Source: an uncultured Bacteroidota bacterium (lineage in GTDB: Bacteria > Bacteroidota > Bacteroidia > Bacteroidales > WCHB1-69). Taken from it: a DNA stretch of 64,000 nucleotides. The notes under the pieces were generated by a model. That model did not search any database and had not been told where the DNA came from. It saw nothing but the letters and a program-made list of their open reading frames with translations. Made by a program: the position numbers and the translations under genes. The DNA is taken from contig CADADB010000009.1 of the NCBI GenBank assembly GCA_902786595.1, forward strand, positions 1 to 64,000. Direction: 5' to 3'. Numbering within the stretch: position 1 is the stretch's first letter; every line of letters begins with the position of its first letter. Of the stretch, positions 2,289-59,365 are shown piece after piece.

Positions 2289-3920
2289 ATGAATTTCATT
2301 GAGCAAATTATCGAAGAAGACATCCAGAACCGGAAAAACGATGCGAAAGTATATACCCGATTTCCACCGGAACCGAACGGCTATCTGCATATCGGCCATG
2401 CCAAGTCCATCTGTCTGAACTTCGGTATCGCTCAGAAATACGGCGGCAAGACCAACCTGCGCTTTGATGATACCAACCCCGTGAAGGAAGACACCGAATA
2501 TGTGGATTCCATCCGGGACGACATCAAATGGCTGGGTTTCCAGTGGGCGGAAGAGCATTACGCTTCCGACTACTTCGACCAGCTTTACCTTTGGGCGGAG
2601 CAGCTCATCCAGGAGGGCTTGGCGTATGTGGATGACCAGACGCAGGAGGAGATCAGCAAGGGTAGGGGAGTGCCCACCGCCCCTGGTGTGGAAAGTCCTT
2701 ACCGCAACCGCAGCGTGGAGGAGAACCTCGACCTCTTCCGCCGCATGAAGGCGGGCGAGTTCCCGGACGGCAGCCGCGTGCTCCGTGCCAAAATCGACAT
2801 GGCATCGCCCAACATGCACTTCCGCGACCCCATCATGTACCGCATCCTGCACGCCGACCATCACCGCACGGGCAGCAAGTGGTGCATCTACCCGATGTAC
2901 GACTTCGCGCACGGTCAGAGCGACTCCATCGAGGGCATCACGCACTCAATATGTACCCTCGAATTTGAGGTGCACCGTCCGCTCTATGACTGGTTCTGTG
3001 AAGCGCTGAAGATCCATCATCCGCAGCAAATCGAGTTTGCGCGACTGAACCTCAACTATACCATCATGAGCAAGCGCAAACTGTTGCAACTCGTTAAGGA
3101 ACATTATGTTAACGGTTGGGACGACCCGCGTATGCCTACCATCTGTGGTCTGCGCCGTAGAGGTTACACTCCTGCGGCTATCCGCAACTTCGCCGAAACC
3201 GTCGGTGTGGCCAAGCGCGACAATATCATCGACGTCTCCCTGCTCGAATTCTGCGCACGCGAGGACCTCAACAAGACTGCTATCCGCACGATGGCCGTCC
3301 TCGACCCGGTGAAACTCATCATCGACAATTATCCTGAGGATCAGGTGGAGATGATGGATGCCGTCAACAATCCCGAGGATGAGACTGCTGGCACCCGTAA
3401 GATCCCGTTTGCCAAGGAGTTGTGGATTGAGCGTGCCGACTTCCGCGAGAATGCCGACAAGAAGTTCTACCGTCTCTCCATCGACCGTGAGGTGCGTTTG
3501 AAATACGCCTACATCATCAAGTGCACGCACATCGTGAAAGACGAAAACGGCGAGATCACCGAGATTCACTGTACCTACGATCCGCTGACCAAGAGCGGTA
3601 TGCCCGACAGCAACCGCAAGGTGAAGGCGACGATTCACTGGGTGCCCGTGAAACACGCCAAAGCCGCTGAGGTACGTCTTTTCGACCGCCTCTTCAGCGT
3701 GCCCGCCCCCGACGATTGCGAAGAAGGCAAAACCTTCCTCGACAACCTGAACCCTAACTCCTTGGAAATCAAGCAAGCTTGGGTGGAAGAAGGTCTTACT
3801 TACGAGAAGGCATCCACTATCAAGCACTTCCAGTTCGAGCGTATCGGATACTTCTATTGCGATCCCGACTCGAATGAGGAGAAGCTGGTGTTCAACAAGA
3901 CCGTTAGTTTGAAACAATAG
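2289..3920 (+). CDS. glnS: Glutaminyl-tRNA synthetase
   Basis: Charges tRNA-Gln with glutamine in the cytoplasm. The 543-residue protein shows the class I signatures [16 protein letters not shown] (HIGH at 34-37) and MSKRK (260-264), the GlnRS/GluRS catalytic block [15 protein letters not shown], and the beta-barrel anticodon-binding domains in its C-terminal half. Length matches bacterial GlnRS. The Met at 2289 is chosen because the upstream in-frame extension precedes the promoter and lacks family similarity. It is apparently monocistronic and divergent from ruvX-def. Confidence 0.97.
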
Positions 3921-4017
3921 TTTTAATTAATAATGGATAGTTGATAATGGATAATTATGAGGGGATTCGAAACGTTTCCCCTCCATTATCAATTATCAAT
4001 TATCAATTATCAATTTA
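3921..4017. repeat. AT-rich tandem repeats (ATCAATT / GATAATG units)
   Basis: The gap after glnS carries two runs, one of ATAATGGATA-like units and one of four ATTATCAATT units ending at the next start codon. No clear promoter box was seen. Confidence 0.7.
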
Positions 4018-4437
4018 ATGAAGAGTTTATTAGATTACGACCCCAAAGTCCTGATGGCTTTCCTCAAAAGTCTGGAGGGCGACCGGAAGTTCAGCGATTT
4101 CCTGATGAACAACGGGTATCGCGAGTTGGAGGCGTTGTCGTCGGCGATACACTCCAACGAGGCGGCGTTGCAATGGCTGTTGGAGAACGGATATCCTGAG
4201 TTTGCGGTGCTGAGCAACGCCATCGACAACGAGGATGCCGCCATTGCGTGGTTAGACAAGTACCATTGCACGTTTTTGGCCACCTTCGCAGCGGCCTGTC
4301 GCAAGGAAACCGAGGCCATCAAATGGTTCGCCGACAATGATTTGCGGCTTTTCATCCTGATTATCAACGAAATCCATCACATCCTGTTGTATCAGTCGTG
4401 GGATGCGAGCGACTTCCACAAGTTTCGGAGGTCGTAG
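4018..4437 (+). CDS. Hypothetical protein, 139 residues
   Basis: Not recognised. Small, helical and cytoplasmic (no signal peptide or membrane segment). It contains loosely repeated units, NNGYRELEALSSAIHSNEAALQWLLENG and the similar stretch YPEFAVLSNAIDNEDAAIAWLDK, spaced about 30 residues apart, like degenerate helical (ankyrin/HEAT-like) repeats. The end is bounded by a strong bidirectional terminator. The repeats suggest a protein-binding role, but nothing in the context identifies a partner. Confidence 0.7.
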   Translation: MKSLLDYDPKVLMAFLKSLEGDRKFSDFLMNNGYRELEALSSAIHSNEAALQWLLENGYPEFAVLSNAIDNEDAAIAWLDKYHCTFLATFAAACRKETEAIKWFADNDLRLFILIINEIHHILLYQSWDASDFHKFRRS

Positions 4438-4449
4438 CGTAAGGATTGT

Positions 4450-4500
4450 CATAAAAAATCGTAGGGTTGTCACAATGTGGCAGCCCTACGATTTTTTATG
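4450..4500. terminator. Bidirectional intrinsic terminator
   Basis: A 17-bp stem (4450-4466 with 4484-4500) has A-rich and T-rich outer halves, so either strand ends in a GC hairpin followed by a U run. It separates the convergent genes at 4018-4437 and 4510-4998. Confidence 0.85.
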
Positions 4501-4509
4501 AGGGGATTT

Positions 4510-4998
4510 TTACACCAGCTCTCCCCAGAATTCCTTTGGCAAATGCACGTTGGGTAAGTTGATGGCTCGCACGAACAGCGGGGCGATTTCCTCATCGGAG
4601 AAACCGGCGATGCCGCAGCCGATGCGCGTCACCAGAAAGGTCAGCTCGGGGTGACAGTCAGCGAACTTGATGAACTCATTGATGTAGGGCACGATGGTTT
4701 CCACGCCGCCCTGCATCGTGGGGATGGCATAACTCTGTCCTTGCAAACCGACTCCTTGTCCCATGACCGCGCCGAATTTTTCGACCGCGATTCTCGCAGC
4801 ACCGCCTGCGTGCATCCCTGCTAAATTGCTTCCGAACACAAAAATCTCGTTGTCTTTCAGCGTGGTTATGTTGTTGGGAGTGATGCGGTTGCGGAACGTG
4901 ATCTTGTCGCCCAGCCCATTCGTTTTGGAAACATTGTTTATGTTTTCAGACTGATGCCCAGTCTCTTCCTGTTGATTTTTGAATCTTTTTGTAAACAT
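4510..4998 (-). CDS. Macro-domain-like protein (A1S_2505-type)
   Basis: 162 residues. After a 40-residue polar N-terminal extension comes EIFVFGSNLAGMHAGGAARIA, YAIPTMQGGVETIVPYINEF and LTFLVTRIGCGIAGFSDEEIAPLF. This pattern is seen in a widespread family of phage and plasmid proteins annotated as A1S_2505 phage-homologue domains. It resembles macro (ADP-ribose-binding) folds in its glycine-rich loops and the RIGCGIAGF motif. Binding or hydrolysis of an ADP-ribose-like ligand is an inference from that resemblance. Monocistronic, ending at the shared terminator. Confidence 0.7.
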   Translation of the reverse strand: MFTKRFKNQQEETGHQSENINNVSKTNGLGDKITFRNRITPNNITTLKDNEIFVFGSNLAGMHAGGAARIAVEKFGAVMGQGVGLQGQSYAIPTMQGGVETIVPYINEFIKFADCHPELTFLVTRIGCGIAGFSDEEIAPLFVRAINLPNVHLPKEFWGELV

Positions 4999-8359: not shown

Positions 8360-8962
8360 CTACATTCCCAGGAACGCCATAAATCCCATGCCCAGCAGTC
8401 CCGTGATGATGTAGGCGATACCGTTGCCTTGCAGTTTGGGCGGGATTTTCGCGTATTTGAGGCGCTCGCGGATGGCGGCGAAGGCGGTGATGGCTAATAG
8501 CCAGCCGATGCCGGAACCGAGCGCGTAGGCCAGACTGTGCGCCACGGTGGGGAAGTGGCGCTCCTGCATGAAGAGCGAGCCGCCAAGGATGGCACAGTTC
8601 ACGGCAATCAGCGGCAGGAAGATGCCCAACGTCATGTACAGCGCCGGAAGATACCGTTCGAAGACCATCTCCAACAGCTGCACGATGCCCGCAATCACCG
8701 CGATGAAGATGATCAGCGACAGGAACGAGAGATCCGTGCCGGCAAAGCTCGCGCTCAGCCACGTCAACGCCCCTTCGCGGAGCAGGTATTTGTCGATTAG
8801 GTAGTTGACGGGCACGGTAACGGTCAGCACGAAGCAGACGGCCAGTCCCAACCCGAAGGCGGTCTTCACGTTCTTGGAAACGGCCAGATAGGAGCACATG
8901 CCCAAGAAGTAGGCGAAGACCATGTTGTCGATGAAGACGGAGCGTATGAAGATATCGAACAT
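8360..8962 (-). CDS. nqrE: Na+-translocating NADH:quinone reductase subunit E
   Basis: Integral membrane subunit of Na+-NQR, homologous to NqrD and to RnfA. 200 residues in about six membrane helices; the opening FIRSVFIDNMVFAYFLGMCSYL and the central LLEMVFERYLPALYMTLGIFLPLIAVNCAILGG-type region (Cys within VNCAIL) are diagnostic, the Cys being one that binds the intramembrane iron centre. No Bacteroidota promoter was found in its 217-bp upstream gap, so it probably depends on read-through from the methyltransferase gene, an arrangement created by the island that separates it from nqrD. Confidence 0.95.
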   Translation of the reverse strand: MFDIFIRSVFIDNMVFAYFLGMCSYLAVSKNVKTAFGLGLAVCFVLTVTVPVNYLIDKYLLREGALTWLSASFAGTDLSFLSLIIFIAVIAGIVQLLEMVFERYLPALYMTLGIFLPLIAVNCAILGGSLFMQERHFPTVAHSLAYALGSGIGWLLAITAFAAIRERLKYAKIPPKLQGNGIAYIITGLLGMGFMAFLGM

Positions 8963-9149: not shown

Positions 9150-9179
9150 CTTTCATTCAGCATTCATAATTTTTAATTC

Positions 9180-10121
9180 TTAATTCTTAATTGAATTTCG
9201 TTCCCAAAAGACGCCGTTGGCGTATCCTTGTATTGTGGGATTCGTGTCGGCGAGGAGGAGGCGTTTGGCGGTCCAGAGGCAGTATTCGCGGTTGAGCTCG
9301 ACGCAGCAGAAGCGACGGTCGAGCTTCTTGGCGACGACGGCGGCGGTGCCGCTGCCGGAGAAGGGGTCGAGGATGCGGTCGCCGGGGTTGGAGGAGGCGA
9401 GGATGAGTTTGGCGTAGAGTTTCTCGGGCTTCTGCGTGGGGTGGTCGGTGTTCTCGGGCATCGACCAGAAGGGCACACTGATGTCGTCCCAGAAGTTGGA
9501 AGGGTGGGTGAGTCGGAATTTCCCGTCGGCGGTGTCGTCCCAGTCTTTGGGTTTCCCGTTCACTCGATATGGGGCTATCACCTTGCGTTTCATCTTGACG
9601 GCCTCCAGGTTGAAGGTGTAGTGTTTCGGGTCTTTCACGGCGAACCAGATGTCCTCCATGCTGTTCTTCCAGTTGGATTTCGCCCCGCGCCCCTTCTCGC
9701 GTTGCCAGGTGATGCGGTTGAGGATGGTAAGTCGCTCTTCGATAACCCGTTGCATAGAGGAGGAACATTTCCAGTCGCCGCACATATAGAGCGAGCCCGT
9801 CGGCTTCAGCTTGTCGCACACCTTGCCGAACCAGCTGCGCAGGAATGCTTCGTAATCGTCTGATTTCATGGACGAGAACTTCCGCCCGTTGAAGTCTTTG
9901 TCGAGGTTGTAGGGCGGGTCGAGGAGGATGAGGTCGAAGTGTCCGTCGGGGATGAGGTCGAGGCATTCGAGCAGGTCGCCGTTGACGAGCATATCGTCGC
10001 GAAAGCCAGAGCGCAGGTCGTCCGGCGTGCTGACGAGCGGTTCCAGCGCGGGGATCTCCCCGGCGGGGACCGTCAGCGTCTGATTTCTTGCAGCTCTATG
10101 TTTCTCTTTGCCCATCATCAT
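9180..10121 (-). CDS. Orphan DNA methyltransferase, beta class (N6-A or N4-C)
   Basis: 313 residues. The catalytic motif IV DPPYN (68-72) comes before the SAM-binding motif I DPFSGSGT (252-259), the order of beta-class amino-methyltransferases such as YhdJ and CcrM. HPTQKP (227-232) is also present, and the putative target-recognition region lies between. No restriction enzyme is next to it, so it is an orphan by context. Transcribed from a promoter at 10138-10146, toward nqrE. Several ATGs open the frame (Met-Met-Met); the first is reported. Target sequence unknown. Confidence 0.9.
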   Translation of the reverse strand: MMMGKEKHRAARNQTLTVPAGEIPALEPLVSTPDDLRSGFRDDMLVNGDLLECLDLIPDGHFDLILLDPPYNLDKDFNGRKFSSMKSDDYEAFLRSWFGKVCDKLKPTGSLYMCGDWKCSSSMQRVIEERLTILNRITWQREKGRGAKSNWKNSMEDIWFAVKDPKHYTFNLEAVKMKRKVIAPYRVNGKPKDWDDTADGKFRLTHPSNFWDDISVPFWSMPENTDHPTQKPEKLYAKLILASSNPGDRILDPFSGSGTAAVVAKKLDRRFCCVELNREYCLWTAKRLLLADTNPTIQGYANGVFWERNSIKN

Positions 10122-10137
10122 AATGGTTGATGAAGCC

Positions 10138-10146
10138 GCAAAAGTA
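10138..10146 (-). promoter_or_regulatory. -7 element of methyltransferase promoter
   Basis: TACTTTTGC on the minus strand, 17 nt before the methyltransferase start. It is the nearest recognisable minus-strand promoter upstream of nqrE-nqrF. It is divergent from the plus-strand promoter at 10196-10227. Confidence 0.55.
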
Positions 10147-10195
10147 CAATTTTTTTAGACGTTCGTGGACACTCTGAAATGACGATCGGAGATCA

Positions 10196-10227
10196 TTTGC
10201 GCACTATCGGATTTTTTTGTACTTTTG
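10196..10227 (+). promoter_or_regulatory. Promoter entering the defence island
   Basis: TTTG (10196-10199), 20 nt, TACTTTTG (10220-10227): a full Bacteroidota-type promoter. The predicted transcript starts near 10234 and contains the structured RNA at 10326-10436 before the helicase stump at 10504. Confidence 0.65.
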
Positions 10228-10325
10228 CACCTGTAAAAATGGATAAGAACCAAACTTTATTGAATATTAGAAGAGAGAAATAGACATTTATAATTTTTTG
10301 ATATAAAGCGTTTTTGCTTTTCAAG

Positions 10326-10436
10326 TAATCGGAAATCTGGACAATTTCCACTGTGTTACAGAAGAAGGCAGAAATGCTCACGGTGTATCCGTGGGCTTTC
10401 TCGTTTGTAACACAGGCAGTCCAGAGCCTCCGATTA
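10326..10436 (+). ncRNA. Nested four-helix structured RNA candidate
   Basis: Four helices nest in one 111-nt arm: 10326-10333 with 10429-10436 (8 bp), 10336-10342 with 10419-10425 (7 bp), 10351-10360 with 10406-10415 (10 bp) and 10370-10383 with 10389-10401 (about 12 bp, one bulge, one G-U), closing on the loop TGTAT. All but the last are perfect. No protein reads through it. It lies in the leader of the plus-strand transcript and is followed by a T-rich stretch at 10456-10462. It could be an independent small RNA, a mobile-element end, or a regulatory leader. The family is not recognised. Confidence 0.65.
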
Positions 10437-10503
10437 GACAGAAAGACTCACGGATTCTTTTTTGTGACCGCTCGAAAGGCGAAGCGCCCCAAACGCCAAG
10501 CCT

Positions 10504-10707
10504 ATGAGCACCAAGTTTTTCAACAATATCGAGACGAGGCTGATGGACAAATTCCACGGCATCGCCTCCGCCATGGCCAACTTCGACATCTTCCATGCCG
10601 TGGTTGGCTATTTTCGTTCCAGCGGCTACTTCAAACTGCGCAAGGAGCTGGAGAAGGTCAGCGAAATCCGCATCCTCGTCGGCATCAATATCGACACAAT
10701 ATTCTGA
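10504..10707 (+). pseudogene. N-terminal stump of a PLD-type helicase
   Basis: 67 residues beginning MSTKFFNNIETRLMDKFHGI and continuing FDIFHAVVGYFRSSGYFKLR and IRILVGINID. This is the start of large defence-associated helicases that open with a phospholipase D-like domain and normally exceed 900 residues. The match stops at about residue 64 and a stop codon follows, exactly where the AT-rich LRR gene region begins. Codon use is GC-rich, unlike the following genes. It is interpreted as what is left after the LRR/KAP pair inserted. Whether it is still translated is unknown. Confidence 0.7.
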
Positions 10708-10741
10708 AAATAATAAATACACGATTGCTTTTAAGAAGTAG

Positions 10742-10771
10742 TTGAAACTTGCGACTATTTTTTTAGTTTTG
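10742..10771 (+). promoter_or_regulatory. Promoter of the LRR gene
   Basis: TTG (10742-10744), 19 nt, TAGTTTTG (10764-10771). It implies transcription from about 10778 and therefore a start codon downstream of that point. Confidence 0.65.
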
Positions 10772-10816
10772 CAAAGTCATATTCAAAAGAATTGTTTTTA
10801 CAAAATATCAATAGTT

Positions 10817-13099
10817 GTGGAAAATTATAAACATGCTTGGCAATATGCTTTAAGAAATCAATTAAAGCACTTGCGGTCCGAAGGTGAGATATCTGAAAGA
10901 GAGTGCCTGTCTTTAATAGATGATATAATATCTTGTGATTCTGAAGCGGAATTTTATCGTCGTCATGACATGGATAACATTTTGAGTGGCGATATCATTC
11001 CTGACTTTGTCACAACTGATGATATTATCACAGATGACCTAACTATTGAAGACGAAGCACGTAAAATTGTATTAGAGAAAAATATACAACTTATTGATGG
11101 CGTTTATTATTGTTTGAAAGAAAAAAAAGTAATCGCTATTAAGGGCGATGTAACACATTGTCATATACGAGAAGGAATTAAAGAAATCACTTACTATGCT
11201 TTTAGAAACTACTCCGAATTTGATATTCGAGATATTCTTGAGGATTATTCTGTCTTCAGTCACAATGCTTTACTGGATATCATATTGCCTGATAGTTTAA
11301 AAAAGATAGATGACCTCGTCTTTTATAGTACTAGTTTACGTAATGTTAAATTACCTGATGGTTTAGAAATGTTGGGAGAAAAAACTTTTGCTGCTAATGA
11401 TTCTTTAGAAACAATTGTTTTACCAACCAAACTGCGCACAATAGGGAAAGGATGCTTTTCTAATTGTCCAAAACTTAAGGAAGTTGAGCTTCCCCAATCG
11501 GTAAAAATGATAAAAGATGATTGTTTCAATGGCTGCACTTCTTTAGAAAAGTTTATTTTCCCTCAAACAGTGAAATCCATTGGTAAGTGCGTTTTCGAAA
11601 AATGTGTCTCTTTAAAAGAAATTGAGCTTCCTCATTCTTTGGAAACTATAGGACAAGCCGCTTTTACTAAGTGTACATCCCTACAGTCTATTATTATACC
11701 TAAAAATGTAAAAAACATTTCCGATAATGTATTTGGATATTGTTCCTCTTTAAAGAAAATTGAGTTTTTAGGGAGCTTCGACGAATTGAAGGGTGGTTTT
11801 TTTCGCAGTTGCTATTCATTGAAAGAAGTATTGTTGCCAAATAGTTTAGTAGAAATCGGCAATGCTGCTTTTAGCTCATGTATATCCTTAAAGGGCATAA
11901 AGATTCCTGACACAGTAGAATTAATAGGCTGTAACACTTTTAGAGATTGTATTTTGTTGGAGGAGTTCAGATTTCCGAATAATCTTCAAGTTATTTTATC
12001 GCAAGCTTTTAAGGGATGCAAGAGCCTACGAGTAGTATATGCAAACAACAATATTGTAAAGATTTTTCCTAACGCCTTTGATGATTGTAGTTCATTACAA
12101 GCCATTGTTGTTCCACCAGGATCGCTAAAACGAATGCAAAGTATCTTCCCGAAACGTGTTGCTGAAAAACTAGTAGAAATAGACCAGTTTCGACCAGAAA
12201 CTATTGTTGCTGTGCAACATTATAAAAAAGATTATGTAATTAAGAATGTCAATCGTTCGTTTTTGAATTGCTTTTCATGGAAGTATATTCATACTAACAA
12301 TGTCACTCTCATGCATCCCAATGATGTAGTTGGACCATGTCCAAAACACCTTATTTATGAACGGGAAGATTTATTGTCTTTTGAAACAAAGTACCAAGAT
12401 TATTATTATAAGATTCAAAATGATTTTATACAAGGAACATTTTACAATCTCGATGACGAAATGTATAAGACGTATGCTTTCATACTATTCTTCGACTTAA
12501 TTGCATCATACAGAGATAATAAGGATTTGGGTAAAATGCTAAACCAATTAGAAATTTTGTGTATTTCCTGTCCTATAATAGGGAATTATGTCCCAGAAAA
12601 GCTAATGACAATAATAGATTATAAACAATTGACTGACACCTCTAAATTAATGATTCTTAAGGCTTTTCCGGGTTTTCGAGGCGTGATGTCCATAATGGAC
12701 TATGCCCTGTTAGTGTTAAATTATTCTGATCCTCAAATAATCAAATTGAAAATACTGGAAGACGTTCAGATTTGTGAAATACAATTGTTGAAGTCTTATG
12801 AGAAAAAATACAAAGTAACACAAGAAGAAATTATAAAGGAAGTGATAGACCTTGTGGTGCAAGTCGCAGGAAAATATGATGATTTCTCAAAGGCAGCTTT
12901 GTTGGCAGCAAAAAGGCAAAAAATCACATCTCTAACAGAGGTAGGTTCAAGATGTTTGCGCAGATGCTTTCAGGAAGTGCTTCGTAATCATAATCCAAAT
13001 ATTATTTATGGTGATGGGATAGGATATGGAGATTGTGGAATTGAGAAAATTGATGAATATCTAAAGGAAATCATGGAATCGAACACACCGATTCACTGA
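10817..13099 (+). CDS. BspA-type leucine-rich repeat protein with TerB_N-like tail
   Basis: About 760 residues from a GTG start at 10817, preferred because the promoter at 10742-10771 excludes upstream starts. A helical N-terminus (about 1-130) leads into roughly twelve 23-residue LRR_5 repeats (about 150-455) of the form LEEIxLPxxLxxIGxxAFxxCxSL. The C-terminal third contains FIQGTFYNLDDEMYKTYAFI and FFDLIASYRDNKDL, resembling the TerB_N domain of Bacteroidota proteins. No signal peptide is seen, so it is probably cytoplasmic, unlike secreted BspA proteins. AT-rich. Followed by a membrane KAP NTPase; the pair looks like a sensor and an effector, which is inference. Confidence 0.85.
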   Translation: MENYKHAWQYALRNQLKHLRSEGEISERECLSLIDDIISCDSEAEFYRRHDMDNILSGDIIPDFVTTDDIITDDLTIEDEARKIVLEKNIQLIDGVYYCLKEKKVIAIKGDVTHCHIREGIKEITYYAFRNYSEFDIRDILEDYSVFSHNALLDIILPDSLKKIDDLVFYSTSLRNVKLPDGLEMLGEKTFAANDSLETIVLPTKLRTIGKGCFSNCPKLKEVELPQSVKMIKDDCFNGCTSLEKFIFPQTVKSIGKCVFEKCVSLKEIELPHSLETIGQAAFTKCTSLQSIIIPKNVKNISDNVFGYCSSLKKIEFLGSFDELKGGFFRSCYSLKEVLLPNSLVEIGNAAFSSCISLKGIKIPDTVELIGCNTFRDCILLEEFRFPNNLQVILSQAFKGCKSLRVVYANNNIVKIFPNAFDDCSSLQAIVVPPGSLKRMQSIFPKRVAEKLVEIDQFRPETIVAVQHYKKDYVIKNVNRSFLNCFSWKYIHTNNVTLMHPNDVVGPCPKHLIYEREDLLSFETKYQDYYYKIQNDFIQGTFYNLDDEMYKTYAFILFFDLIASYRDNKDLGKMLNQLEILCISCPIIGNYVPEKLMTIIDYKQLTDTSKLMILKAFPGFRGVMSIMDYALLVLNYSDPQIIKLKILEDVQICEIQLLKSYEKKYKVTQEEIIKEVIDLVVQVAGKYDDFSKAALLAAKRQKITSLTEVGSRCLRRCFQEVLRNHNPNIIYGDGIGYGDCGIEKIDEYLKEIMESNTPIH

Positions 13100-13166
13100 G
13101 TATGCTGATTAAAAATGGGCGTGATGCCCTTTCCCCTTTTATTAGCTTAAGTTTGGGATTATTTTG

Positions 13167-13174
13167 TAATTTTG
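13167..13174 (+). promoter_or_regulatory. Candidate internal -7 element for the KAP gene
   Basis: TAATTTTG followed by C, 21 nt before the ATG at 13195. A weak GGGC/GCCC hairpin with a T-rich tail at about 13116-13140 precedes it, which could end the LRR transcript. No good -33 box. Confidence 0.4.
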
Positions 13175-13194
13175 CTGAAATAAATTTGTTTGAA

Positions 13195-15918
13195 ATGGGA
13201 AAGACAAATAAATCATTTTTGCGGTGGAATATTCCTGCTTTCATTATATCCTTATGTCTAATTGCGGTTTTTTGGGTGCCTCTTAACAACGCTATGGCGA
13301 CTGTGTTTGTCAACCCGCTTTTAATGCATGTTAAAAACCATAGCGGTTTAGTACAGTTTGTGTTAATTGTTCTGATGGCTGTCTGTTACTTCTTTGTTTC
13401 CAAACAAATGAAACGTGAGTCGTGGTGGTCTATTAGACGCATCCTTACATTTGAGGTAATATGTGTTCTTATTATCTTCCGTTTCTCAGGTTTGTATGAG
13501 TTTTATGGAATAGGTCGTGGTTTTCCCTCCTATCTGGATGTCGTTGCCATCCTTGCCGTTGTCGTTGAAATTTATGCTATTTTTTGGAATGTTCTCTCGA
13601 ATTGTAATAATACATCAACCGAGTCAGAATACACCTCATTCTTTATAGATCAACCTACAAAAAAAGATGAACTCAAAAGAAAGTCCTATGCGCAAGTTTT
13701 GGTGGAAAAAATTGTTTCGACATTTTCTATAAAACAATTCAATGATACCGAAAACCATGATATGGGATCATTTACTGTATTGCTTAGTGAACGTTATGGT
13801 CAAGGCAAATCATCGTTCTTTGAACAAATTAAGGGTGTCTGTTCCGATAAGAACATTGAAGTTATAGAATTTAAGCCATGGCTTAGCAATGATTCAGGAC
13901 AAATGATATTTAACTTTTTCAATCTTCTTAGGGAGAAGTTGGGCTTCCATGATAAAGAGTTAAGCAAGTTGTTGCAATCGTACGCTATCGTTGCTTCTGA
14001 CCACATTACAGGTAAAGCAGCAAAAGCATCCTTAAACCTTTTTGATTCGATTTCTATTGAAACACAACATGATAGAATTTCACAAATACTTCAAGAGGAA
14101 AGGAAGCTTCGCGTAGTCTTGATTGACGATGTCGATAGGTTGCAAACTGACGAGCTGCTGGCTTTGATAAAACTAATCAGAAATACTGCTGATTTTCCGT
14201 ATATAGCGTATGTAGTAGCTGCGGATAAAGCAGCCGTAAAAGAAACGTTAAGATCTGCATCAATAAGTGATACTGAAGTATATCTGAAAAAGTTTTTTAA
14301 CTTTGAATTGCTGTTCCCTGCTGATGATGATAACGTTTTGGGCAAATTGATAGATAGAATAGCTGAGATATTAAAACAGTTTGAATATACATCTCAAAAC
14401 ATCAAAGAGATAGAAGACAATATAAACAAACATCCACAATATTATACACCTGTTTTTCCCAATATGCGTGATGTGTATCGTTTTTGTAACATTTTATCTT
14501 TTGAGTTAGATTTATTGAGAAGTATGAAAAATGCAGAAGGAGTCAATATTTCTATGTTGAAAGATGTTTATATTGCTGATTTGGTAAAAATCTGTATGAT
14601 TCAATTTGTTTCGCCAGACTTATACAAAATTTTCAGAGATTATAGATTTGTTCTTTTAGAAGATTATAGACATGGTAAACTTGTTTTACGTGACGTTTGT
14701 AAGAAGTTTGTTGATACTAGTGAAAGAATGCAGTGTGTCAGAGAAACCGTGAAGAAAGCGGGAAACATAATGCCTGAAATTGATTTTGAAGGAAATTCAC
14801 AATCAGGTGAAGATAATTTTGAGGGGAAAGAAGTGGATTTTAAAACACTTTCAGAATTATTGATAAATGTTTCTCCTGACGAGGAAGAATTACTTAAGTT
14901 CTTGATTGATGACTTATGGGATAAAACGGATGTTTATGTCGATTTAAGAAAAGTATGCTATCGTAACCAATATTTCTTGTATTTTTCAGGAAAATACCGG
15001 AGAGATGAATTGTCAGACCAAGAAGCATTGAACCTTTATAGCAGTGACGGAGCTCTTTTTGTTCAGGAAACCGAAAAAAAGATCGCTAACAAGAAAGAAT
15101 CTATGCTCCACAAACTAAACTCTATCGTGGTAAGAGGGATGATGGAAGATAGGTTGTTGTTGTTTGAAAATATTTTATTTATGTCACAAATTGACCATAA
15201 AGAATATCTCAAACAAAATCCAATGCTGCCAATTGGTTACTATGAATTCTTCCAAACTCAACAATATGGAGAAATCATACGGAAGTTATATTTGCTACAA
15301 GGTGATGAAACTATTGATAAAGATGCATTTTTAACGGCACATGAAGAATTATTTAGGACCACAAAAGAATTTGCGTCTAATGCTCTCGGAATACATTGGA
15401 TTAAGTGTGCTTCTTTATTAGGGTACGGTTTCTTACCGATATTTACAAAGGAACAAGCGCTCTGTTTCTCAAAGATTCTAATTGATAGGTTTTACGATGA
15501 GGTTTTTATCAAAACTCCTTTTGATGAAAAGGCAATCGAAGCTATTCCTTGTATGAGATTGGCCAATGAAACATATTGGAACGAATTATTTGTAAAATAC
15601 ATTCAGGCATCAGATAATCCAATGGAGTGGATGTTTCGTTTGTTCAAACTGAATAGGAATGGTAAGGGCATGTCTTGGAATAGACAAACGGTGTTAGCTG
15701 TTTGTGGAGAATACCCTCAGTTAAAAACTATTAAGGATTTGGCAAAAGAAATTGTTGGCGATGAAATATTCCAAAAATATGAAGAGAAATCGGACCTTAT
15801 TGTACCACTCCATGGTGAGTTCGATAATATTGAGAGTATCATGAATAAACCATTTACGAAAGCCGCATACGAATGGCTCACCAACAATCCTAAAAGATTT
15901 GTCCACTGTTCATCCTAA
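13195..15918 (+). CDS. KAP-family P-loop NTPase with four N-terminal membrane helices
   Basis: 907 residues from 13195; an in-frame ATG at 13102 would add 31 residues but lies upstream of the candidate promoter. Membrane helices fall at about 13-30, 52-69, 83-99 and 114-134. The NTPase domain follows: Walker A ERYGQGKSS (199-207; the usual first Gly is Glu), EFKPWLSND (the KAP F-x-PW motif) and Walker B RVVLIDDVDRL (306-316), followed by the KAP-type IAYVVAADKAAV strand. The C-terminal 500 residues are helical and unrecognised. KAP NTPases include the T7-excluding PifA. Here the helices precede the P-loop instead of interrupting the domain. AT-rich like its LRR neighbour. Confidence 0.88.
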   Translation: MGKTNKSFLRWNIPAFIISLCLIAVFWVPLNNAMATVFVNPLLMHVKNHSGLVQFVLIVLMAVCYFFVSKQMKRESWWSIRRILTFEVICVLIIFRFSGLYEFYGIGRGFPSYLDVVAILAVVVEIYAIFWNVLSNCNNTSTESEYTSFFIDQPTKKDELKRKSYAQVLVEKIVSTFSIKQFNDTENHDMGSFTVLLSERYGQGKSSFFEQIKGVCSDKNIEVIEFKPWLSNDSGQMIFNFFNLLREKLGFHDKELSKLLQSYAIVASDHITGKAAKASLNLFDSISIETQHDRISQILQEERKLRVVLIDDVDRLQTDELLALIKLIRNTADFPYIAYVVAADKAAVKETLRSASISDTEVYLKKFFNFELLFPADDDNVLGKLIDRIAEILKQFEYTSQNIKEIEDNINKHPQYYTPVFPNMRDVYRFCNILSFELDLLRSMKNAEGVNISMLKDVYIADLVKICMIQFVSPDLYKIFRDYRFVLLEDYRHGKLVLRDVCKKFVDTSERMQCVRETVKKAGNIMPEIDFEGNSQSGEDNFEGKEVDFKTLSELLINVSPDEEELLKFLIDDLWDKTDVYVDLRKVCYRNQYFLYFSGKYRRDELSDQEALNLYSSDGALFVQETEKKIANKKESMLHKLNSIVVRGMMEDRLLLFENILFMSQIDHKEYLKQNPMLPIGYYEFFQTQQYGEIIRKLYLLQGDETIDKDAFLTAHEELFRTTKEFASNALGIHWIKCASLLGYGFLPIFTKEQALCFSKILIDRFYDEVFIKTPFDEKAIEAIPCMRLANETYWNELFVKYIQASDNPMEWMFRLFKLNRNGKGMSWNRQTVLAVCGEYPQLKTIKDLAKEIVGDEIFQKYEEKSDLIVPLHGEFDNIESIMNKPFTKAAYEWLTNNPKRFVHCSS

Positions 15919-15946
15919 GTAGACACCATCGCAAGGCAGGAAGAGT

Positions 15947-16027
15947 TTCCCTTCCAGGGACATGTCGGCTTTGGAGCGTGAGATTAATGGGTTGCTGTAT
16001 GAGGAAGTGAAGGTGGTGGAGCAATGA
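15947..16027 (+). pseudogene. C-terminal tail remnant of a restriction-modification enzyme
   Basis: In frame: PSRDMSALEREINGLLY then EEVKVVEQ and stop. Intact Eco57I-type (IIG) or helicase-linked methylases end with DTSALEREIDxLVYELYGLTEEEIKVVE. Here the tail is recognisable but a few residues (the LYGLTE part) are missing and there is no upstream coding sequence. It starts 29 bp after the KAP stop, so it marks the right edge of the inserted pair. Confidence 0.6.
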
Positions 16028-16257: not shown

Positions 16258-17610
16258 ATGTTAGTAAGAATAGTAACAGAGAATTTCAGGTCTTACGGAC
16301 AGGAAACAGAGTTTAACATGCTTCCATCTTCGAACGTCCGTAGGTACGACTGGCACGTGCATACCCGCAAGAAGGGTGCAGGTGTACTGCGCACCGCCGT
16401 GATATATGGTGCCAACGCCGCCGGTAAGTCATGCTTGATTAAGGCACTAGCCAGACTCCAGGAAATGGTAATCATCGGAGGCCTTCCGCCGCTCTATATG
16501 CGAGATGCCAATAAGTTTAACGACCCCGAAAAGCCCGTGAGCATAGAAATAGAGTTCGGGACAGAAGACAACCAGTACTCATACGGCGTAAGCTACAAGG
16601 ACAACGTGTGCGTAGAGGAATGGTTGTATTCTACCTTAAAGACCCCCGTGCGCATATTTGAACGGAAGTGGAACGCCAAGACCGGCAAGACCAAGATAGA
16701 GCTGGAGGCTAAGAAGAAAGACGACGCCAAGAGCAAGATGCTGGTGTCGTTGCTGGAAGACAACCTGCTGAAAGGCAACGAACTGCTGCTTTCAAAACAA
16801 GATGTGCTGAAGAACAAGTTCATCACAGATGCGTACGACTGGATTACCCAGAAACTGCAAGTGATATATCCGCAAACGCGGTCGACTTCTATCTTTGACA
16901 ACCGGTATTCGGATGATACGTTCAAGGAACAGTCGGAAAAACTGCTCGCCGCTCTGGATTTGGGTATCAGCGCACTGACACTGAAAGATGAAGATGTGGA
17001 GTCCTTCAAGCTCAGGATGGCAGAGTGGCCAGAACTGAACAGGAGCATCGACAGAATCATTAGAATGCTGTCTAAAAGCCCTGAGGGGAAAAACGAAGCG
17101 TTCATTGACAGCGGCGTGTTTACCGTAAGTCTTCGCAGGGAAGGGGATAAATACTATGCTCGTCGTGTCCAGGCCCAGCATGAAGTGAAAGAAAAACGTT
17201 ACGACTTTGAACTTAAAGAAGAGTCGGACGGAACACAGCGCGTGTTTGACTTTGTGCCCATGGTGCAGAACGTGAAATCGAAAGATTATACGTATGTGAT
17301 AGACGAGATTGACCGCAGTCTGCACCCCACACTGGTAAGAGCCTTGGTGACCAAGATAGTGACCGACAAGAACATGAAGGGACAGCTGATCTTCACCACG
17401 CACGACGCAGGACTGTTGGACGGCAAGATATTCCGCAACGACGAGATTTGGTTTGCAGAGAAAGACCGCGAGACTCAGAATACACACTTGTATACACTGG
17501 ATGAATTCAAACCTCGCACAGACCTTGACATTGAGAAAGGCTACCTGAATGGACGTTTTGGTGCCATCCCCTTTCTGGCAAAACTTAACGAATTAAATTG
17601 GGAGGAATAG
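16258..17610 (+). CDS. AbiLi/RloA-type AAA ATPase
   Basis: 450 residues, ABC/SMC-like ATPase of the RloA/AbiLi group: it opens MLVRIVTENFRSYGQETEF, then Walker A GANAAGKS (51-58), a signature-like ESDGTQRVFDFVPM, Walker B YTYVIDEIDRSLHP and a switch His in LIFTTHDAGLL. With the RloB-type gene starting one base after its stop it matches AbiL, a two-gene abortive-infection system in which the ATPase is thought to control the TOPRIM partner. Complete and with its own promoter at 16202-16231. GC is nearer to the chromosome than that of the preceding pair. Confidence 0.88.
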   Translation: MLVRIVTENFRSYGQETEFNMLPSSNVRRYDWHVHTRKKGAGVLRTAVIYGANAAGKSCLIKALARLQEMVIIGGLPPLYMRDANKFNDPEKPVSIEIEFGTEDNQYSYGVSYKDNVCVEEWLYSTLKTPVRIFERKWNAKTGKTKIELEAKKKDDAKSKMLVSLLEDNLLKGNELLLSKQDVLKNKFITDAYDWITQKLQVIYPQTRSTSIFDNRYSDDTFKEQSEKLLAALDLGISALTLKDEDVESFKLRMAEWPELNRSIDRIIRMLSKSPEGKNEAFIDSGVFTVSLRREGDKYYARRVQAQHEVKEKRYDFELKEESDGTQRVFDFVPMVQNVKSKDYTYVIDEIDRSLHPTLVRALVTKIVTDKNMKGQLIFTTHDAGLLDGKIFRNDEIWFAEKDRETQNTHLYTLDEFKPRTDLDIEKGYLNGRFGAIPFLAKLNELNWEE

Positions 17611-17611
17611 G

Positions 17612-18319
17612 ATGGGATTCAAGGTGAGAGGATATACGCGAGAAGTGCCTCAGGAAAAAGTGCGTGACTATTCGTTGTTTGCCATTGCCTCGGAAGGCAG
17701 TGTACGGGAGCCTGAATATTTTCTGCCCTTTGACGGCATTGAACGGATAAAGGTGGATATTATTGAGTCCGAACTTGCTGAGGAGGATGGCCAAAGGGAG
17801 AGCACCGGTTCCTCTCCCTCGCAAGTGCTGAAAAGGGTGATGGAATACATCGTCAAGTATCAGTTGAGTGTCGAGAACGGTGATTCACTATGGTGTGTGA
17901 TTGACGTAGACCGATGGCCGCAGGAGCAGATAGAGGAGCTGCATGCGTTCTGTGCTCAGAAAGAAAACTGGCACTTGGTGATTAGTAATCCCTGCATTGA
18001 GATATGGCTGCTATATCACAAGATGGCTGACCTTACGGGACTTGGGATTATTGAAGCCAAGGACGCAAAGCGGGCACTGGGCGAGATTGACGGAGGTTAC
18101 TATTATATCAAATATCTGCCTCTGATGCTGGATGCCATTGAGAACGCTTCCCGTGCGGATTCGATGCCGGATGGTTGGATGCCCGGATTGCTAGAAACGA
18201 AGGTCTATCATCTTGCCCGTGCACTATATGAGCGGATGGGTAAGGTTAGGTTTGAAAAGTTCGTGGCCTGGCTGCCCCAGTTGGACAGAGAGATGAGGAA
18301 AAAGAATGTGAGGAAATAG
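17612..18319 (+). CDS. RloB/AbiLii-type TOPRIM-like nuclease
   Basis: 235 residues. RloB family markers: ASEGSVREPEYF near the N-terminus, CVIDVDRWP (the TOPRIM D-x-D) and VISNPCIEIWLLYH. TOPRIM proteins of this type are presumed nucleic-acid nickases or nucleases. Coupled to the ATPase gene by a one-base gap, and 26 bp before the helicase gene, which suggests a three-gene operon. Complete in length for RloB. Confidence 0.87.
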   Translation: MGFKVRGYTREVPQEKVRDYSLFAIASEGSVREPEYFLPFDGIERIKVDIIESELAEEDGQRESTGSSPSQVLKRVMEYIVKYQLSVENGDSLWCVIDVDRWPQEQIEELHAFCAQKENWHLVISNPCIEIWLLYHKMADLTGLGIIEAKDAKRALGEIDGGYYYIKYLPLMLDAIENASRADSMPDGWMPGLLETKVYHLARALYERMGKVRFEKFVAWLPQLDREMRKKNVRK

Positions 18320-18345
18320 AAGTGATTTGGAGAAGATCGTTTGTT

Positions 18346-21300
18346 ATGGATGAATACAAATTGACAGAGCTCTGTAGACGAGAAGGTGCCAAAAACATCA
18401 TTAGCCAATTGTTGGCTCCTGGCCAGATCATCAGCTTGAATGAGGTAGAAGAGACGAGAAGTTATGTGGTGGCAATTGATGGCGGTGTGCGTTATTGTTT
18501 GACAGGTAATCCTAATATTTTTGATCCATTAGCTCAGTACATTATTCTGACTGAACATACACCAACCAAACAAAAACTGCTGGATGGAACTGCTAAACAG
18601 AAGAAGTGGCTGTGGCATCCCAAAATCTCAGAATATACTCCTAACGAGGTGCTCGCTTCTTGGACCAACCAGTTTGTTTTTAAACAGGAAATTGATGAGG
18701 AACATCCCGGACTGAGAAAACCGCAGTTGGGAGCGTTACATGCCGTATTGGGTCATTTCCTCGCCCCGAATGAGGTGGCGACAGTGGTTCTTCCCACAGG
18801 AACGGGTAAAACCGAGACGATGCTTTCCGCGTTGGTGGCGGGTAAGTGCAAGAAATTACTTGTAATTGTGCCATCAAGTGCATTAAGAAATCAGCTCTAT
18901 GGAAAATTCAAGAATCTGGGTATATTAAAAGATCCTAAATTTGGGATAGTAGGTGAGAATGCTCTATATCCTATTGTTGGTGTTGTCAATACAGCTTTTC
19001 GTTCAGTAGCTGAACTGACTGCTTTTGTGGAGAAATGTAATGTGGTAATTACCACAATGCAAATAATAAATTCTGCACCACAGGAACAACAGAACGTCTA
19101 TGTGTCAGCTTTTACAAGTGTTTTTGTAGATGAGGCTCATCATATAGTTGCGGCATCGTGGAGGCGATTTGCTGACCGCTTCCCGAAAGATCGCTTAGTG
19201 CAATTTACTGCTACTCCATGCCGAAACGACGGGCAAAGGCTTGAAGGAAAGATAATTTTTAACTACCCGCTTAAGCAGGCTCAGGAAGATGGCTATTACA
19301 AAACCATTAATTTCTTGCCTATTAGAGAGTATGATGATGACAAAGTAGATAGAGCAATCGCGGCTAAGGCGATTGAAAAGTTGAGGGAAGATTTGGCCGC
19401 AGGTTGCCATCATATGCTGATGGCACGATGTGAGAATAAAAGCCGTGCAATAGATGTTTATGGTATTTATCAGGAACTATGCCCGGACCTGAATCCTGTT
19501 ATTCTGTATTCTGGGCATCCACAATACAAGGAGAACTATAGAATTGTATTGCGACGTGAGGCCAAGGTGATAGTTTGCGTGAATATGCTCGGGGAAGGAT
19601 TTGACCTACCAGAACTAAAGATTGCGGCTTTCCATGATATAAGAAAGAGTCTTCCTGTTACTTTACAGTTTGCTGGTCGTTTTACCCGTACAAGCCGTGA
19701 TGCAAACTTGGGGGACGCCTCGTTTGTGGCGAATTTGGCAGATGTTACGGTACAGCAGGAGCTGAACAACCTTTATGAGGAGGATGCAGACTGGAACATT
19801 CTGTTGGCTAATGCAAATGACAATAGGGTTAACAATCAGGAAGAATACAAGCAATTATTAGATGGATTCCGAAACGGAGTCAGTTCTAAGATTCCGGTGA
19901 GCAGTGTCTATCCCAAACTGAGTGCAGTGGTGTATAAAAGCTACACAAATACGTGGCATCCAGAAGATTTCCTGAAAGGTATTCGAAGCTTTGATGATTT
20001 AGATTTTACCTCGTATGACATCAATGACACAGAGAAGCTTGTTGTTGCCGTTTACGCCAAAGAGCAGAATATAGAAGGCATTCGTATTAAGGATGTTAAG
20101 ACTTTGGCTTGGAGCTACTTGGTGTTGTTTTGGGATAGCAACAAGAACTTGTTATTTATCAATAGTTCGGATAACGGAAGCGTCTATAAGGATGTTGCTA
20201 ACCATGTGATAGGTGAAAATGGCAGAGAGCCTGTTTTGATAAACGGAATAAACGTGTTTAGGACATTCTACAATGTAAAGAGGACAAAACTGAGGAATGT
20301 TGGATTGAAAGTGTATCTCGGTAAAGATGTTCGTTTCAGAATGCACGCTGGCCGTGATGTGGAGAAAGCATTGTCGGATGCGGAATTGCGCAACAGTGAG
20401 AAGGCTTTTGTGGTAGGTGATGGCTTCGAGAATGGTGACAAAACTTCAATAGGAGCCTCGTTCAAGGGAAGGATTTGGAGCCTGAATGGCGCAGGTGATA
20501 TTCTGACATTTAAGAATTGGTGTTTGGCGCAGGGTGATAAACTGACTAACGAGGAGATCAACGGCAATCAGATATTAACCGAGACATTGATACCTAAGAC
20601 AACACATCAGATGCCACAAAGAGCTGTCCCGTTTGCTATTGATTGGGATGCTTTATTGTGGACTGAAACGGAGAATCATTTTACATTCAACCTTCAGGGA
20701 GTAGAGTCTCATTTGTATAATACAGAAATTGAACTGAGAGAAAATAATTTGATTCAAGACAATGCTGTGTTTTTTGCGGTGACAAATGGCAATCAAAGAG
20801 TGGAGTTCAAGTTGGAACTGTTTGAGAACAGGATGAACCCAGACAATGTTTATCCCGATTATAGGGTTGTAAAAATAACAGACGGGGATGCCACTATCAA
20901 ATACGGCAGGCAAGAGGTGGATTTGGCTACTTTTTTTTATAATTATGCTCCTACTATCTTTTTCACGGACGGATCATGCCTGTGTGGTACAGAATATATT
21001 GAATTAAAAGTCCAACCAGCACTATATGATAGAAATCGTATCATTGGTTGGAACTGGCAAGGTGTGAACTTGGCTTTGGAGTCGCAAGGTGTTGCCCCAA
21101 ACTTAAAAACAAACTCTATACAGTATCGTGTCATTCAAAAGCTCATGAATGAAGACTATGATATCATCTATGATGATGATAATTCAGGCGAGATTGCGGA
21201 TGTGATTACACTCAAGCAAGAGAACAATGAAATACACATAGAATTGTATCACTTGAAATTTGCTCAAGGCGGAGCTGTGACAGGAAGGATAGGCAATTTT

Positions 21301-21624
21301 TATGAGGTTTGTGGACAGGCCCAGAAGTCTTCTAATTGGAAGTACAGGGAGCCTGAAGAAATGATGAATCACCTATTGCGCAGAGAAATAAAGCGGGAAG
21401 GCAAGGAAGAGTGCTCGCGCATTCAGAAAGGAGACCATGATACGCTGGTGAAACTGTTGAAGTTGGCAAAGAAAAAGATACCAGTAAAGTATAGTATATA
21501 TATCGTACAACCTGGCGCATCAAAAGTTGGTTTGTCTAATGAAATCCTAACATTACTGGGAGTGACAGATAGTTTTTTGAAAGATAGAACGGGGATAGAT
21601 TTGCAAGTTATCACTAGTGAATAA
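18346..21624 (+). CDS. SF2 DEAD/DEAH helicase with C-terminal nuclease-like domain
   Basis: About 1092 residues from ATG 18346, which follows a GGAGAAG stretch; an in-frame GTG eight codons upstream is an alternative. Helicase motifs: LPTGTGKTE (149-157), VDEAHHIV (261-268), QFTATPCRND, and motif V/VI GEGFDLPELK and LQFAGRFTRT. Near the C-terminus, DDDNSGEIADVITLKQENN then IHIELYHLKFAQG (about 940-972) has the acidic-strand / E-x-x-H-x-K layout of restriction-endonuclease-like domains fused to such helicases. It probably tracks along DNA and cuts. It lies directly downstream of the AbiL pair. Confidence 0.85.
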   Translation: MDEYKLTELCRREGAKNIISQLLAPGQIISLNEVEETRSYVVAIDGGVRYCLTGNPNIFDPLAQYIILTEHTPTKQKLLDGTAKQKKWLWHPKISEYTPNEVLASWTNQFVFKQEIDEEHPGLRKPQLGALHAVLGHFLAPNEVATVVLPTGTGKTETMLSALVAGKCKKLLVIVPSSALRNQLYGKFKNLGILKDPKFGIVGENALYPIVGVVNTAFRSVAELTAFVEKCNVVITTMQIINSAPQEQQNVYVSAFTSVFVDEAHHIVAASWRRFADRFPKDRLVQFTATPCRNDGQRLEGKIIFNYPLKQAQEDGYYKTINFLPIREYDDDKVDRAIAAKAIEKLREDLAAGCHHMLMARCENKSRAIDVYGIYQELCPDLNPVILYSGHPQYKENYRIVLRREAKVIVCVNMLGEGFDLPELKIAAFHDIRKSLPVTLQFAGRFTRTSRDANLGDASFVANLADVTVQQELNNLYEEDADWNILLANANDNRVNNQEEYKQLLDGFRNGVSSKIPVSSVYPKLSAVVYKSYTNTWHPEDFLKGIRSFDDLDFTSYDINDTEKLVVAVYAKEQNIEGIRIKDVKTLAWSYLVLFWDSNKNLLFINSSDNGSVYKDVANHVIGENGREPVLINGINVFRTFYNVKRTKLRNVGLKVYLGKDVRFRMHAGRDVEKALSDAELRNSEKAFVVGDGFENGDKTSIGASFKGRIWSLNGAGDILTFKNWCLAQGDKLTNEEINGNQILTETLIPKTTHQMPQRAVPFAIDWDALLWTETENHFTFNLQGVESHLYNTEIELRENNLIQDNAVFFAVTNGNQRVEFKLELFENRMNPDNVYPDYRVVKITDGDATIKYGRQEVDLATFFYNYAPTIFFTDGSCLCGTEYIELKVQPALYDRNRIIGWNWQGVNLALESQGVAPNLKTNSIQYRVIQKLMNEDYDIIYDDDNSGEIADVITLKQENNEIHIELYHLKFAQGGAVTGRIGNFYEVCGQAQKSSNWKYREPEEMMNHLLRREIKREGKEECSRIQKGDHDTLVKLLKLAKKKIPVKYSIYIVQPGASKVGLSNEILTLLGVTDSFLKDRTGIDLQVITSE

Positions 21625-22649: not shown

Positions 22650-22706
22650 TCCCAGAACCCGCCAAGCCTCTCTACGATGCTCAAATGTGCGGGTCGTTTT
22701 TTTTTA
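22650..22706 (+). ncRNA. Short RNA with terminator ahead of the Abi_2 gene
   Basis: A perfect stem ACCCGC (22657-22662) / GCGGGT (22689-22694) encloses a 26-nt loop and is followed by a run of nine T (22697-22705). With the promoter just upstream this would give an RNA of about 55 nt ending at an intrinsic terminator, before the Abi_2 reading frame at 22725. AbiF/AbiD-family HEPN genes have been reported with adjacent structured RNAs; equating this hairpin with that RNA is inference from position. It may instead act as an attenuator. Confidence 0.55.
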
Positions 22707-22724
22707 CGTGAAACCAGACATATT

Positions 22725-23422
22725 ATGAAGGAAACAAAAACACCGTTCAACAAAAAATATAACACACCAGCAGAGCTTGTAAAACTATTACAATCAAGAG
22801 GTTTGCATATAGCAGATACCTCTATTGCCGCACGGCATATCCAGAATATCGGCTATTTTGGATAACAAATCAAGACAATTTCAAAGATGTGAACAAATTT
22901 AAACATACTTTGGAACTGATAGAATCTGAAATCAACCATTCACAAGAGGAGTTTATCCTCCATTTCAAACAAAAGTATTGTGAAAATTATCCTCCAGCCT
23001 GGATTTTGGCAGAAATTTTGCCTTTTGGGGTTGTCACCAACATATACAGCAATATCAAATGCTTGCGATTGAAAAAGAATGTGGCACAGCAATTCGGTTT
23101 GCAAGTCTCTCCATTTGAGTTGTGGCTTACCATCGTGACCTTAACCCGTAACTCATGTTGTCATCATGCACGAGTGTAGAACAAACGAAACACCATTCGT
23201 CCAATGCAACCTCACCGTACAGCTTATTCATGGATTCACAATCCAGCAGATCCATTAAGGATTTTCTTCGACCTTTGCATTATCAAATATTTTGTCAATG
23301 TCATCTCTCCAAGCAACGATATGACAAACAAACTCAAAACGCTTCTTTCCGACTTTCCCGAGGTGGATTCCACCGCCATGGGCTTCCCTCGTGATTGGGA
23401 AAAGGAACCTGTGTGGAAATAG
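22725..23422 (+). pseudogene. Broken Abi_2 (AbiD/AbiF-family) HEPN gene
   Basis: The start MKETKTPFNKKYNTPAELV and LLQSRGLHIADTSIA...NIGYF is the Abi_2 N-terminus. The frame then shifts at about 22860, with loss of roughly 100 residues compared with the family. It resumes as LELIESEINHSQEEFILHF, YPPAWILAEILPFGVVTNIYS and LTRNSCCHHARV, the last holding the HEPN R-x4-H motif. An in-frame TAG (23177-23179) replaces the expected Trp codon of HHAR-x-WN, and the frame then continues 80 codons to 23422. With two lesions and an internal deletion it is inactive. It ends 23 bp before the nqrD stop. Confidence 0.85.
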
Positions 23423-58915: not shown

Positions 58916-59365
58916 ATGACGAAAACTAATATTAAAGAAGCAGTTGTAGAAACAGGGAAATATGGTCCAGTGTACAGACAATTTGCGGGGAAGCCAAAAG
59001 AGGCTATCAAATTTCTACGTGAAAAGAAAAATGGCGAATGTATAGCAGCCCTGTACCGCAGCGACATTGGGGACATTGACATCGTTTGGGGAGAAATTAC
59101 AGACCCGATCAAACACAAAGGATATGGTTTGGCTCACATTATTGACAAGCACGAACTTGAAATCAATAAGTTGGGATTTAATGTGGAAGATTTTGTACCT
59201 ATCGTCGTTCAATTTGGCAATTTCAATCTAAAGAAGTCAGACAGTCAGAAAAAAGTGTTTGAAAGCGAGACTTTCAGATTTGTTGTGGCATTGGAAAACG
59301 AACAGAATGGGAAGATAAAGAAATGGTTGCTCTCAGCCTTTGATATATTAAAAAGACCGAAGTGA
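58916..59365 (+). CDS. Stand-alone PBECR-like (barnase-EndoU-ColicinE5/D-RelE) nuclease
   Basis: 149 residues. The core IDIVWGEITDPIKHKGYGLA plus HIIDKHELEI and later FRFVVALENEQNGKIKKWLL follows the pattern of phage-barnase-EndoU-ColicinE5/D-RelE-like nucleases (VxWGxxxxxGxGLxHIxxKH), with His in HII and KHE as likely catalytic residues. These domains normally sit at the C-terminus of phage or conjugative proteins; here it is the entire protein, with its own promoter and terminator. No obvious immunity gene follows. RNA is the presumed target by family. Confidence 0.75.
   Translation: MTKTNIKEAVVETGKYGPVYRQFAGKPKEAIKFLREKKNGECIAALYRSDIGDIDIVWGEITDPIKHKGYGLAHIIDKHELEINKLGFNVEDFVPIVVQFGNFNLKKSDSQKKVFESETFRFVVALENEQNGKIKKWLLSAFDILKRPK

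Follow-up and report, generated by a model that had tools for sequence, protein, structure and literature searches.

Two adjacent genes on the forward strand of an uncultured Bacteroidota genome, one encoding an LRR protein and the other a KAP-family NTPase, raise the question of whether they belong together, as a dedicated defense system or as a sensor with an exchangeable effector, or merely met in a variable region. Here, the window denotes the whole 64,000-nucleotide stretch of DNA that was analyzed. An earlier note on this DNA had described an AT-rich gene pair lying inside an anti-phage island and between the ghosts of another defense locus, and this description of the site was confirmed. 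The long open reading frames (ORFs) span positions 10742-13099 and 13102-15918, both on the + strand, and the GC content measured 33-37% in 2-kb windows over the pair, as compared to 50-57% on its left and 40-47% just downstream.

The pair is framed by two gene remnants. On the left, a PLD-nuclease/SNF2-type helicase gene is represented by its first 67 codons (10504..10704, +; 95.5% identity by tblastn to residues 1-67 of 1100 of the protein in locus L128), and on the right an Eco57I/TaqI_C-type methyltransferase gene is represented by its end (15938..16021, +; tblastn match to L128 residues 939-973 of 975, 51% identity, E = 7e-5). Where the genus has this locus intact (L122, L128, L129 and L131), a 1098-1151-aa ORF precedes one of 975-1103 aa; in L128, Pfam identified the former as a PLD/SNF2-type helicase and the latter as an Eco57I/TaqI_C methyltransferase. 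The LRR and KAP genes make up the entire content between the two remnants in the window. Alignment of window positions 10121-10741 with genus genomes ended exactly at position 10696 in 10 of 12 strong matches, counting genomes with at least 379 bits besides the own genome and RUG083 (G807) and setting weaker ones aside. Ahead of the helicase remnant, at about 10268-10467, lies what appears to be an unexplained interspersed repeat, with many copies at 70-79% in the genus genomes; at gathering scores, Rfam matched nothing there.

The whole defense-type island sits between two Rnf-Nqr subunit genes on the - strand, read as nqrE (8360-8962) and nqrD (23446-24036). In locus L121 (G816), too, a helicase remnant adjoins an nqrE-like ORF. 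The pair is followed in the island by an AbiLi/AbiLii-like gene pair and then a large helicase-type gene (16258-21624; domain and model matches), and further on by an abiF RNA (RF03085) ahead of a 96-aa Abi_2/AbiD piece (22658-23179; Rfam and Pfam). This piece covers profile positions 94-182 of 184 only, and the protein thus seems to lack its front half.

The upstream gene was first read as the long ORF at 10742-13099 (+), with its start at TTG 10742. That start was abandoned: it falls inside a promoter-like box, and the ATG of the homologue in RUG11690 (locus L089) aligns with GTG 10817, which is therefore most likely the true start and gives a protein of 760 aa (10817..13099, +). The box, TTG-19-TAgtTTTG (10742..10771, +), resembles the Bacteroidota promoter consensus, and its -7 element by itself had a p of about 0.09 against shuffles. 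The protein is a member of the BspA-type LRR family PF13306 (310 bits against a curated cut-off of 27.7; E = 1.1e-93, scored with the longer ORF) and has no hydropathy peak of membrane-helix strength at the threshold applied to the KAP protein, in agreement with the cytoplasmic, BspA-type protein initially proposed. LRRs of the BspA type are also found in many other kinds of protein, several of them in the own genome.

An AlphaFold2 model built from three sequences (mean pLDDT 60.9), reliable for the solenoid only, placed the LRR solenoid at residues of about 150-461 (11264..12200, +), with strands 23 residues apart, pLDDT mostly of 80-94 from residue 171, a last repeat strand at residues 452-454 and a collapse at residue 463. 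It is followed by a helical tail domain (12203..13096, +; low-confidence model). The tail had been called TerB_N-like, and what stands of this is a weak, indirect resemblance: PF13208 (TerB_N) matched nothing in the own genome at E ≤ 10, and a profile of the tail matched a protein of G057 (E = 8.5e-7; hhalign probability 91%) in which Pfam found a TerB_C domain. At L055 (7565-13013), the N-terminal part of a TerB_C-bearing protein matches the LRR tail; the next two ORFs, as judged by eye, are one of 438 aa with a P-loop-like motif and a helicase-like one.

The downstream gene was first read as a 938-aa ORF (13102-15918, +); judging from the sequence, ATG 13195 is most likely its start, giving about 907 aa (13195..15918, +). 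Membership in the KAP family is supported by PF07693 (87 bits against a curated cut-off of 20; E = 1.7e-24), and four hydropathy peaks, predicted as membrane helices at residues 12-124 (13228..13566, +), all precede Walker A, so the KAP-family NTPase with four N-terminal membrane helices announced in the earlier note was borne out. By hydropathy, two or more peaks precede the P-loop in 20 of 31 KAP relatives. The family, going by the title of a 2004 paper, is said to carry membrane segments inside the NTPase domain, whereas those of the window protein precede it.

Alignment and a motif scan located Walker A (ERYGQGKS) at residues 199-206 (13789..13812, +), and the Walker B region (14110..14139, +) contains D311, D312, D314 and R315, all invariant in 12 aligned sequences. 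The modified Walker A reported at the outset is real in that Glu occupies the first-Gly position, but it is not peculiar to the window gene, being common to its two closest relatives (L031 and L032), with Gly, Ser or Ala in the others. As the mark of a dead or special NTPase this change was ruled out: the position varies in the family, and the Walker A Lys is invariant in 12/12 aligned KAP sequences. Pfam found no NACHT or NB-ARC domain in the KAP protein at E ≤ 1, and a structure model built from this one sequence was useless (mean pLDDT 37.5).

The two genes need not form one operon, since a separate promoter-like box seems to precede each of them. The box ahead of KAP, TAATTTTG (13167..13174, +), lies upstream of ATG 13195 (shuffle p = 0.13), and TAnnTTTG was present within 70 bases of all four starts examined, namely those of the LRR and KAP genes of the window and of the LRR and AbiH genes of L089. 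Taken alone, each of these boxes is weak evidence (shuffle p = 0.05-0.13); the motif occurs at 6 of 35 window ORFs of at least 200 aa, as compared to 3% of random 70-mers. A terminator scan reported no terminator between LRR and KAP, and a 4-bp GC hairpin noticed by eye at 13117-13129 is too weak to be one. Separate boxes are consistent with two independent single-gene cassettes that met in the defense island, with KAP defending alone, like Tmn, and the LRR protein having a separate role; we regard this explanation as possible, if somewhat doubtful.

Comparison of the pair with other genomes revealed no conserved co-occurrence of the two genes. The DNA of the pair had one real relative among 40 genus genomes, RUG083 (G807, contig OMYJ01000007.1), of the same genus as the window, which matched bases 1-2415 of 5174 at 97% and has the LRR gene, but not KAP, at the corresponding site; its LRR ORF is intact and has no companion gene. 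A 36-base match in G814 was taken as chance. A profile of the LRR tail matched four of 104 family genomes (the own genome, G807, G839 and G782). In 393 order genomes it recovered the own protein, the TerB_C-bearing protein of G057 and three weak matches (E = 0.003-0.0065), which were set aside, and in 130 phylum genomes the own protein only. Also set aside was a tail match in G044, whose 4.3-kb contig showed neither a recognizable LRR gene nor a KAP gene, and plasmids contained no tail domain at E ≤ 0.01. A protein search found no KAP protein in G807, G839, G782 or G814; such an empty result carries little weight in the absence of a positive control, but nearly the same query matched relatives in the order and phylum searches.

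The two-gene LRR+KAP system of the earlier note was therefore not upheld, no conserved pairing having been found: the LRR gene stands without KAP in RUG083 and with AbiH in RUG11690, and the tail was present in 0 of the 31 loci with KAP relatives that were fetched. Its underlying reading, a dedicated split-NLR system with conserved pairing, agrees with the adjacency of the two genes, their common strand and the way they occupy the gap between the remnants. We nevertheless judge it very improbable, given that the searches used turned up no second LRR+KAP locus in the order (393 genomes), phylum (395), family (104) or genus (40) and that AbiH takes the place of KAP in RUG11690.

The locus in RUG11690 (G839, L089) contains the only other full homologue found besides that of RUG083, an LRR protein of 766 aa that is 52% identical to that of the window. 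About 140 bp after its gene lies an AbiH gene (ATG 7306; PF14253, E = 8e-22; PADLOC AbiH, E = 8e-5), a companion absent beside the window LRR gene. Identity between L089 and the sister genome G834 is 97% over 2856-4871 and 8406-8647 and 87% thereafter; between 4871 and 8406, L089 has the LRR and AbiH genes and G834 an unrelated, secreted-protein-like ORF of 255 aa. This comparison on either side indicates that LRR and AbiH are the whole variable stretch in RUG11690, at a site unlike that of the window. The LRR gene is thus found again, elsewhere, with a defense-type companion as the only other long ORF of the stretch, which argues against two cassettes that met by accident. In G782, the tail domain belongs to a 549-aa protein in which no LRR was seen (L135, 772-3660), adjoined by a 390-aa protein that looks WG-repeat-like by eye; neither protein had a PADLOC match.

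Alignment of the window and RUG083 alleles revealed a sharp change within the LRR gene. Only 1 of 1451 bases differs over 10742-12192, as compared to 53 of 908 (5.8%) over 12193-13100 (Fisher p = 1.4e-21), placing the inferred recombination junction at 12143..12193 (95% interval; residues 443-459), near the last strand and the collapse of the modeled solenoid. The near-identity spans the promoter-like box and the solenoid and extends left to about 10200, with a flank (9151-10050) that is 93-98% identical. Downstream, the window has KAP and 35 methyltransferase residues, and RUG083 has no KAP and 60 residues. Together, the junction and the differing downstream content indicate one near-identical head joined to two different lower halves; within the gene, the recent history of the solenoid differs from that of the tail. 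The tail has a dN of 0.037 against a dS of 0.158, as expected under purifying selection. The position of the junction at a domain end is a single event and could be due to chance, and a chimeric contig is possible, since the records are assemblies of uncultured bacteria.

KAP matches at E ≤ 1e-10 were obtained for 18 of the 393 genomes in the order and 17 of the 395 in the phylum, the own genome being counted in both. We fetched 20 of the 21 non-own places in the order (G082:C111 was omitted) and 11 of the 16 new ones in the phylum. None of these 31 loci contained the LRR tail domain, and in two an LRR gene of some kind was present, at a distance of over 4 kb from KAP; neighbors can be missing, as some of the contigs are short (L036, 8.3 kb; L047, 5.6 kb). 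Sugar-metabolism genes and an EPSP synthase gene adjoin the two relatives closest to the window protein (identity of 27% and 24%), and AAA_21 and RloB genes adjoin the L045 relative; others lie beside peptidase or O-acyltransferase genes, and several have no close same-strand neighbor. Such varied neighbors suggest that KAP proteins in these loci often have no fixed partner. At L033 (1895-8145), a KAP relative precedes a HamA gene and a DEAD helicase gene, resembling a Hachiman-like operon with KAP in front.

Phage records contained no KAP relative at E ≤ 1e-5, and viral contigs no confirmed one. Relatives in plasmids (15 records) stayed below 30% identity, and in no case was 80% of the query covered; no named genome contig with the KAP protein was confirmed by a search sensitive to close relatives only. 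KAP NTPases are reported among the targets of diversity-generating retroelements (PMC10907252).

The scarcity of LRR neighbors around KAP relatives, the relatives without close same-strand neighbors and the LRR gene without KAP in RUG083 are all consistent with two separate cassettes. A stand-alone KAP is a strong rival because Tmn, a KAP-family NTPase defense system with two membrane domains that was tested in E. coli, inhibits several phages, by a mechanism that the paper terms unexplored (PMC11846954). The window KAP protein resembles Tmn as a KAP NTPase with membrane segments, phage defense having been demonstrated for Tmn, but has four such segments against two membrane domains, and no LRR partner of Tmn was found described there (PMC11846954). 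No PADLOC match named Tmn was returned for the window proteins at E ≤ 1, from a library that may not contain such a model.

Other known systems resemble the pair in part. The PADLOC model for PifA (PDLC02361) matches the NTPase part of the 938-aa ORF (residues 228-515, E = 5.8e-26), but over model positions 45-350 of 720 only, and includes no LRR gene. QatA of QatABCD is a KAP-type NTPase, and its model matched the window at E = 0.0038 over 49 residues; QatB, QatC and QatD gave no match among the five window proteins scanned, and the pair was not assigned to QatABCD. NLR-like and bNACHT proteins combine NTPase and sensor in one protein. The window pair shares with them the idea of LRR-type sensing coupled to an NTPase, but its LRR and KAP are separate ORFs, and by Pfam KAP is not of the NACHT/STAND type, which sets the pair apart from NLR and STAND sensors.

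A role outside defense, as regulatory or surface-related genes in a variable island, has some basis in the KAP relatives near sugar-metabolism, O-acyltransferase or peptidase genes, in the commonness of BspA-type LRRs among proteins of other kinds and in the secreted-type gene that occupies the RUG11690 slot in G834. With anti-phage-type genes beside the pair, an AbiH companion in RUG11690 and a restriction-type locus replaced by the pair, we consider this improbable, and a defense role of the pair likely.

Across the three loci, the LRR gene is what stays constant, its companion being KAP, AbiH or nothing, and where there is a companion within the variable stretch, it is a defense-type gene. 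The pair thus resembles an exchangeable combination of sensor and effector more than it does a two-part system of fixed composition. We tentatively favor, at somewhat less than even confidence, a modular unit in which the LRR protein would act as the sensor and the downstream gene as an exchangeable defense effector. The LRR homologues in RUG083 and RUG11690, the AbiH gene beside the latter, the sharp junction near the solenoid end and the defense-type neighbors support this reading, as do the variable stretch made up of LRR and AbiH alone, the gap between remnants that contains LRR and KAP alone, and the dN and dS of the tail. Against it stand the three loci only, RUG083 without a companion, KAP relatives usually without an LRR neighbor, the own promoter-like boxes, the single LRR+KAP locus and a junction that may be one event, chance or a chimera; we give two unrelated cassettes nearly equal weight. 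Were the modular unit correct, the solenoid would bind an invader product in the cytosol and the helical tail would relay the signal to the effector; the window KAP, anchored by its four helices, might then use NTP binding or hydrolysis to halt the growth of the infected cell or to harm its membrane. A combinatorial toxin-antitoxin/phage-defense network reportedly has a constant module with swapped partners, and the LRR loci resemble it in idea only, its proteins being toxin-antitoxin.

A bolder and rather unlikely version supposes a rare sensor family of uncultured Bacteroidales, consisting of an LRR solenoid and a relay tail, that is moved by homologous recombination over conserved restriction-type locus ends. 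In this version, the junction near the solenoid end suggests that sensor heads and tail-plus-effector halves are shuffled, with unrelated effectors (a membrane KAP NTPase or AbiH) plugged in behind. If sensor and effector are indeed exchangeable, some bacteria would assemble NLR-like immunity out of separately encoded parts, combining a portable LRR head with interchangeable killers, and recombination of sensing and killing would be directly testable. The loci also caution against equating one adjacent pair with a "system", as the same sensor has another neighbor elsewhere. The parts of the pair are of known kinds; neither an LRR+KAP nor an LRR+AbiH pair was found described in the openly licensed literature, among the matches listed.

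Elsewhere in the window, another AT-rich stretch carries an MvdD-like ATP-grasp gene (55388-56404) and a gene for a protein with a PBECR1-type nuclease domain (58916-59365).
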